From Bacillota bacterium (lineage in GTDB: Bacteria; Bacillota; UBA5301): 50,949 nucleotides of DNA. The notes under the pieces were generated by a model, which was not told the DNA's origin, did no database searches, and saw only the letters and a list, made by a program, of their open reading frames with translations. Made by a program: the position numbers and the translations under genes. This document shows positions 1 through 49,019 of this stretch, piece after piece. How positions within the stretch are numbered: the stretch's first letter is position 1; each line of letters opens with the position of its first letter. The DNA is taken from assembly GCA_012735535.1 (NCBI GenBank), contig JAAYHC010000053.1:1-50949 (forward strand). Reading direction: 5' to 3'.

Positions 1-124
1 CCTCCTTCGGCTTCCTTCAGACCCCACCGTTACCAGTGACGCCCTTGCCTACGGATTGTCTTCCCGCTAGTTAGGCGACAGGGTTTCTTTCAACCCATCG
101 GCTCAGCAGACATGCTGGGCACAC
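1..124 (-). mobile_element. Group II intron, 5' end only (cut by window edge)
   Basis: Read on the minus strand, the segment starts with GTGTGCCC at position 124. It continues with a GGGTTGAAAG...CCC stem and ends in a CTGAAGGAAGCC block near position 15. I recognise this order as the 5' end and domain I of bacterial group II introns. These are self-splicing ribozymes that normally carry a reverse transcriptase further downstream, which here would lie beyond the left edge. The 5' boundary falls about ten bases after the minus-strand terminator of smpB. Insertion behind terminator hairpins is the habit of class C introns, so class C is an inference from context. The first thought, tmRNA (often next to smpB), does not fit because no tRNA-like acceptor end is visible. 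Confidence 0.8.
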
Positions 125-129
125 CAAGC

Positions 130-160
130 AAAAACCGGGCCACTGCGCCCGGTTTTTTTC
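130..160. terminator. Bidirectional Rho-independent terminator after smpB
   Basis: A perfect ten-base-pair stem (AAAACCGGGC with GCCCGGTTTT, positions 131-140 and 147-156) encloses a six-base loop. A T run follows on the plus strand (153-159), and the A run on the other side gives a T run on the minus strand. It closes the smpB transcript and probably served as the landing site of the intron behind it. Confidence 0.9.
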
Positions 161-169
161 TCTCACTCA

Positions 170-634
170 TTACAACTTAGAACGTTCGCGAAAGGCCCGC
201 TCGATCTCTCGGTTCATCTCGCGCTGTTTGATGTCGTCACGTTTATCATAAAGTTTTTTCCCTTTGGCCAAAGCCAACTCTACCTTGGCATAACCATTGC
301 GGATGTACATGGACAGTGGAATCAGAGTCAACCCTTTTTCCTGAGTTTTGCCGATCAAACGCCTAATCTCATCGCGATGCAACAAAAGCTTGCGCGGTCT
401 GACGGGGTCATGGTTCTCGCGGTTACCGTAATCATAGGGGCTGATATGCAGGTTATACACGATGACCTCGCCATTTTCTACCCTGGCAAAGCTATCCTTG
501 AGGTTAACCCGCCCATTGCGCACCGACTTAATCTCCGTACCCTTGAGCACGATGCCGGCTTCGATCGACTCAAGGATATGATAATCATGGCGAGCCTTAC
601 GGTTGGTAGCGATTGGCTTGACATCATTCGCCAC
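170..634 (-). CDS. smpB: SsrA-binding protein SmpB
   Basis: SmpB is a 154-residue tmRNA partner that brings SsrA to stalled ribosomes for trans-translation and tags the unfinished peptide. The full length matches the family. The N-terminal [10 protein letters not shown] segment and the GTEIKSVR and [15 protein letters not shown] segments of the OB-fold body are all present. The C-terminal basic tail (KRDDIKQRE...) enters the decoding site. Translation probably starts at the GTG at 634, eight bases after an AAAGGGGG ribosome site, and 15 bases after the stop of the HD-domain gene upstream. The usual partner gene rnr (RNase R), often between secG and smpB, is absent here. The tmRNA gene is not visible in the window. 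Confidence 0.97.
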
Positions 635-648
635 GCAATTGTCCCCCT

Positions 649-1203
649 TTAAAGACCGAGCTCATCACTTATCGCCTGCATACTGGCTAAACCGATCGCG
701 ATGAATTGCTCCAGATCCAAACCCAACTCCGCACATGAACTGATCTGCTCCCGGTTAGCCCCCCGGGCAAAACCTTTCTCGCCAAAACGATTCAAAACAA
801 ATTGCGTATCAATCGAGCTCAGTTTCTTGTCCGGATGAATCAAGGCGGCCGCTACTATCAGTCCGCTCAATGGATCGGCAGCGTACAAAGCCTTATCGAT
901 CTTGCGGTTACGCGGCAAGCCGTGCACCGGGTTATGACTTTTGACCGCATAGATAATATCACGGTCCACACCCATCGCTTCAAGTATTTCGGCGGCGACC
1001 ATACTATGCGCCTGGGGATCGTTGGCGGTAAAATCATAATCGATATCATGCACCAGACCGGCCAAACCCCACCGATCCGGGTTTTCATCAAAATGAGCTG
1101 CTAAACCCCGCATGATTGCTTCTACAGCATACATGTGCTTTAACAGATTCGGATTCTTGACATTGCGTTGGACCGCAGCTAAAGCTTCTTCCCTGGCAAT
1201 CAC
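649..1203 (-). CDS. HD-domain phosphohydrolase family protein
   Basis: This 184-residue protein has a single HD domain. Likely metal ligands are H23, the H52-D53 pair in LVHDIDYD, H66 and D110 in YAADPLSGL. Proteins of this type are annotated as HDIG hydrolases; the substrate is unknown and could be a nucleotide or another phosphoester. No DNA-binding, GYP or RelA features are seen. The start is a GTG preceded by GGGGGAG. It lies between secG and smpB, where many Firmicutes carry RNase R instead. A strong terminator and a 12-base tandem repeat separate it from secG, so it may depend on readthrough or on a promoter I cannot see. Confidence 0.85.
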
Positions 1204-48850: not shown

Positions 48851-49012
48851 TCAACTCTACAGAAGGTGCCACGCAAACTTCTTTTGTTCCTGTGTCGCCA
48901 CAGGGTTTGTGGAAGTCCTAACGACCGTGGCCGCCGAGGGTCACCCGCCGATAATCCGAGATCCCCTACCTCGTCAACTCGCCGCCGGGCAGCGAGTCCA
49001 GGCGCTCAGATC
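48851..49012 (-). ncRNA. glmS ribozyme: glmS ribozyme-riboswitch
   Basis: On the minus strand, AGCGCC opens the element at 49006. It continues with TGGACTCGCTGCC and a GGCGAGTTGACGAGG core, then TTATCGGCGGGTG and CCACAAACCCTGTGGCGACACAGG-like arms. These match the known glmS ribozyme, which uses glucosamine-6-phosphate as a cofactor to cut just before the first G of GCGCC (between 49006 and 49005). Cleavage makes glmS mRNA unstable. The core starts 14 bases after the glmM stop, so cutting would separate glmM from glmS in the same transcript. Confidence 0.93.
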
Positions 49013-49019
49013 TACATCT

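Follow-up and report, generated by a model that had tools for sequence, protein, structure and literature searches.

A probable group IIC intron 5' end directly behind the smpB terminator at a contig edge, and identical intron ends in other MAGs

The window, a stretch of 50,949 nucleotides, is the whole of one contig (C8; G000:C8:1-50949) of a genome that comprises 94 contigs and 1.94 Mb, and its position 1 is the first base of that contig. Its left edge carries smpB, a hairpin and the beginning of what we interpret as an intron, in the following arrangement:

170-634, minus strand: smpB, SsrA-binding protein (NCBIfam NF003843, 218 bits; TIGR00086, 195 bits)
130-157, with a core stem at 135-152 and an A/T extension over the full span, T-rich on both strands: terminator hairpin of smpB (fold -20 kcal/mol)
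125-128, minus strand: 5' exon end CTTG, candidate IBS1 (TTG precedes the intron in 3/3 copies of this genome)
1-124, minus strand: putative group IIC intron 5' end, first 124 nt, with nt 1 at window position 124 and the last at the contig edge

The CTTG is a candidate IBS1 whose possible partner would lie in the intron interior, a part that is absent from the assembly.

The hairpin begins 12 nt past the smpB stop codon and reads AAAAACCGGGC-GCAGTG-GCCCGGTTTTT on the minus strand. Only one of 200 shuffled sequences folded as well (z = -4.3). Past the hairpin, the minus strand continues with TTTTT, then GCTTG, and then the intron GTGTGCCCAGCATG, which runs from window position 124 to the contig end, so that 10 nt lie between the core stem and intron nt 1. 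A consensus terminator scan of both strands of window positions 1-700 called no terminator, perhaps because A-U pairs were counted into the stem.

The intron sequence starts GTGTGCCCAGC..., and its first five nucleotides, GTGTG, fit what we take to be the GUGYG consensus of group II introns. The 160-nt segment at the edge of the window also matches two other contig ends of the same genome (C40:8317-8444 and C41:1-124). When aligned on GTGTGCC, the three copies have 121 intron nt in common (C8 itself shows 124), and upstream of intron nt 1 they agree over just 3-4 exon nt. Because the copies agree from nt 1 onwards and have only these few exon nucleotides in common, we fixed the boundary at window positions 124/125. 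Each copy has its own hairpin directly upstream of the intron, the three exons are unrelated to one another, and the copies on C40 and C41 sit behind genes unrelated to smpB.

At the gathering threshold, segment 1-124 had no match in Rfam. At a relaxed threshold, the start of RF02001 matches 39 nt with 15.6 bits and E = 0.47, which alone is not significant. In L033, a complete relative of this intron, RF02001 begins at about intron nt 86, so a short partial match is what would be expected from a 5' end of 124 nt. Low-threshold hits to eight other RNA families (Leu_leader, SorX and others) in window positions 1-300 all fell below their cut-offs and were taken as chance.

To place the intron in a class, we turned to its relatives. 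We searched 60 related genomes, and the intron's own, for both intron ends; the 5' end was matched in 17 of these 61 genomes (own included) and the 3' end in eight. L033, from genome G057, is a complete relative of 2101 nt that encodes a reverse transcriptase (RT), carries both RF02001 and RF00029, and is 86% identical to the window intron at the 5' end. A second relative, L065 from G008, reaches 96% identity at the 5' end; scaffold gaps interrupt that copy, and for this reason L033 was used as the reference. The L033 frame has 437 residues, 421 of which were searched, and contains RVT_1 and GIIM domains with a TIGR04416 score of 434 bits (cut-off 300). Among solved structures, the nearest to this RT is that of the GsI-IIC RT (327 bits), followed by hits at 285, 235, 231 and 172 bits and by LtrA at 153 bits; the three hits at 231-285 bits are to entries that we take to be class C. 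The domain searches with the 421 residues gave no endonuclease match, and the GIIM domain ends at residue 370. The lineage resembles group IIC introns such as that of GsI-IIC from Geobacillus stearothermophilus in the RT of L033, which is nearest to the GsI-IIC RT and lacks an endonuclease match, and in insertion behind hairpins, and it differs in that the window's own family is known here from 5' and 3' ends alone. Sequence comparison therefore supports assignment of the window intron to class C through a relative with 86% identity in the 5' end rather than by an RT of its own.

We then compared the sequences upstream of 30 5' junctions, consisting of the three in the intron's own genome, six in genome G022, and 21 of the 27 loci obtained from a contig scan of other genomes (the remaining six were the same G022 contigs and were counted once). 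As a control for folding we used 2000 random 45-mers of the window, which are mostly coding and represent neither matched terminators nor intergenic DNA. Against this control, the three own 5' exons (45 nt each) fold at the 0.9%, 0.1% and 0.25% levels, and 26 of the 30 exons, these three among them, rank within the lowest 3%. Four exons miss the 3% level: one from CSMAG lies at 6.1%, with a hairpin visible by eye, and three others fail, one of which has just 19 nt of sequence. Class C introns are described as inserting behind Rho-independent terminators in two publications (PMC4424553; PMC8919778), and the hairpins at the 5' junctions agree with this target.

A search of the same genome with RF00029 identified two group II 3' ends, located at the first bases of contigs C35 and C45 and scoring 45.7 bits against a cut-off of 40 bits. 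The two contigs are identical over 127 nt and then diverge; their first 125 nt end in CTACTCGAT, and in the Rfam alignment they cover domain V as well as the stem that closes domain VI. These 3' ends are not tied to the smpB copy, whose contig ends inside the intron, and a search for a third 3' end in this genome found none, leaving two 3' ends to three 5' ends. No match was obtained when the fragmented assembly was searched for RVT_1. All common stretches lie at contig ends, comprising 121 nt of intron with 3-4 nt of exon on the 5' side and 127 nt on the 3' side, and breaks at such stretches are as expected for contig ends caused by a repeat. The contigs thus seem to stop where the repeat starts, with the interior left unbinned; near-identical intron copies would collapse in short-read assembly, which would account for the missing interior.

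Taken together, these data lead us to conclude, with a probability of roughly nine in ten, that the minus strand of window positions 1-124 forms the 5' end of a group IIC intron, that the genome contains at least three copies of this retroelement, and that the present copy was inserted in the sense direction right after the intrinsic terminator of smpB. The preliminary description had placed the start of a group II intron about 10 bases behind the terminator stem on the minus strand and had ascribed the site to the terminator targeting of class C. The measured distance bears out the first point, the intron itself is confirmed by the same junction at three contig ends and by homology to complete introns, and class C with terminator targeting is supported by the RT of the relative L033 and the hairpin-backed insertion sites. 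By analogy with class C introns in general, the most likely route of insertion would be one in which a ribonucleoprotein of intron RNA and an endonuclease-less RT recognizes the stem-loop of the terminator together with a short IBS1 (CTTG in this case), after which the intron would reverse-splice into DNA and be copied with a primer supplied by the replication fork. Both the smpB reading frame and the hairpin remain whole after the insertion. Taken alone, the copy is a further example of a class C intron at a terminator, which is the usual kind of site for this class, and the choice of smpB as host gene looks like chance.

The same intron ends recur in other metagenome-assembled genomes (MAGs). 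Six contigs of G022, a genome from another family of the phylum whose SmpB shares 61% identity with that of the window, carry 5' ends that are 100% identical to ours over the 105-124 nt visible (124/124 at best), and three more 5'-end matches in G022 are 82-93% identical. Five G022 contigs match our 3' end without a difference over 125 nt, a sixth is 99% identical, and two more matches are at 78-79%. The introns of the two genomes are thus alike at both ends (124/124 nt and 125/125 nt in the best contigs) and differ in their insertion sites; in G022, smpB and ssrA lie 40 nt apart with no intron between them. Our 5' end is also identical at five loci of AS15tlH2ME_178 (over the visible 32-124 nt), at one of two loci of AS09scLD_252 (over 86 nt, the other being 98.4% identical over 122) and in DTU087 (over the visible 61 nt).

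When all the 5' flanks (at most 5 kb each, with the 19-nt flank left out) were compared with one another, only two pairs matched. In one of these, AS15 locus L082 and G022 contig C29 (L076) have the same terminator, with flanks that show 77% identity over the 415 nt leading to the junction, and the intron 5' ends are identical at 105/105 visible positions. Vertical descent is not an easy explanation for this pair, which suggests independent insertion at one site. In the other pair, AS23 L091 and GB_MAG15 L080, the flanks are 67% identical over 486 nt.

The simplest reading of the identical ends is recent horizontal transfer of the intron. We lean slightly toward the broader view that a single group IIC intron, almost invariant in sequence, is sweeping across families of Bacillota in anaerobic communities; the MAGs with identical ends presumably come from anaerobic digesters. 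Cross-binning could mimic part of the pattern, and hardly so for the smpB copy, since the SmpB encoded on its contig is 78-80% identical to that of genomes of the same family. Identical ends in different families would be a concrete instance of a group II intron that has recently crossed from one family to another. One review infers such transfer in general, from bacteria in which introns of several classes are present (PMC4424553). A literature search combining group II introns with anaerobic digestion and horizontal transfer, covering titles and the beginnings of abstracts with subscription journals mostly outside its scope, returned nothing on this case. The distribution of these ends may further explain why contigs of such MAGs in some cases end beside terminators, and it calls for care with gene-neighborhood arguments at contig edges.

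The visible part of the smpB copy amounts to 124 nt, and the copy itself may be truncated or ORF-less. One possible, though distinctly less probable, reading is that it is a decayed derivative of this kind, a group IIC copy truncated or deleted for its RT that was either mobilized in trans or is dead; as a sub-case of our preferred explanation, its odds overlap with those of the latter. Derivatives without an RT frame do occur in the same intron lineage, with both ends present in the first three listed here and the fourth being short:

L026: 975 nt, longest sense frame 99 residues, no RT frame
L032: 632 nt, longest sense frame 58 residues, no RT frame
L101: 605 nt including an N gap, longest sense frame 71 residues, no RT frame
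L031: 256 nt, longest sense frame 53 residues, no RT frame

The existence of these relatives and the lack of an RT in the assembly both favor such a derivative, whereas the identity of the 5' and 3' ends between copies, and with those of G022, suggests recent activity and argues against it. The contig breaks do not discriminate between an intact and a decayed copy, as an ORF-less repeat would break contigs too.

It is very improbable that the segment instead belongs to some other kind of RNA element or that the contig end is a chimera. The lack of a gathering-level Rfam match would fit such an origin, but three junctions, each behind a hairpin of its own, coincide at one nucleotide of the intron, and the segment is homologous to an intron with D1-D4, an RT and domain V.

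In the preliminary description, the intron had also been placed between smpB and ssrA, the two genes of trans-translation. We found smpB in 59 of the 61 genomes and tmRNA (E up to 1e-20) in 58. In 45 of the 59 genomes with smpB (own counted in the 59), ssrA lies behind it on the same strand at a distance within 400 nt, and in three it lies 1.5-2.1 kb behind; in the other 11, our own among them, ssrA is on another contig, or far away on the contig of smpB, or was not detected. Two of the wide gaps belong to genomes of the same family as the window (G001 and G002, 1490 and 1485 nt) and hold two CXXCH multihaem cytochrome genes, one convergent to smpB and one in the direction of smpB, the cytochrome domain having been checked in one convergent and one co-directional gene. 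The gene pairs lie as follows:

L062, 1038-2366: cytochrome gene pair between smpB and ssrA, same-family relative
L063, 861-2173: cytochrome gene pair between smpB and ssrA, same-family relative

In G002, the convergent cytochrome gene ends, by eye, right behind the hairpin that follows smpB, so a bidirectional terminator makes sense there. A search for the two cytochrome genes in the window's own assembly gave only matches of 28-49% identity and no close orthologue. In the third wide gap, that of G055, a frame resembles by eye a sensor histidine kinase, and searches of this gap with RF02001 and RF00029 gave no match.

The window's genome carries ssrA on contig C12 (24589-24949, minus strand), 110 nt from the right end of the contig, and these 110 nt hold no intron sequence. 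The ends of C8 and C12 face each other in the expected order. We searched for a join between them using the last 120 nt of C12 (the 110 nt upstream of ssrA and 10 nt of ssrA), which proved unique within the genome and unmatched in 10 relatives, leaving the join without support. The earlier placement consequently stands in part: the intron lies in sense orientation behind the smpB terminator, but its location between the two genes is not shown, since ssrA is on C12, whose end is intron-free. No smpB-adjacent intron occurs in relatives among the matches listed (the best 14 per genome, with more candidates in G011, G039, G043 and G057), and a literature search for group II introns with smpB and ssrA, limited to titles and abstract openings and with subscription journals largely beyond its reach, yielded nothing on this case. 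The intron's position relative to ssrA is probably without meaning, and any closeness of the two would be incidental. It is likewise very improbable that an effect on trans-translation, such as altered read-through into ssrA, led to the intron's placement or retention between smpB and ssrA: only its location beside smpB and the usual succession of the two genes speak for it, and against it stand its position behind the terminator, the two other copies behind unrelated genes, the lack of smpB-adjacent introns among the listed matches in relatives, and the cytochrome genes between smpB and ssrA in same-family genomes.

On the other side of smpB, an HDIG-domain gene (649-1203, minus strand) lies between smpB and a small gene at 1297-1518 that by eye resembles what we take to be secG; the place of the HDIG gene is one often occupied by rnr. 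Far from this edge, at window positions 48865-49017 on the minus strand, is a glmS ribozyme (79.8 bits), the sole Rfam match in the whole window.
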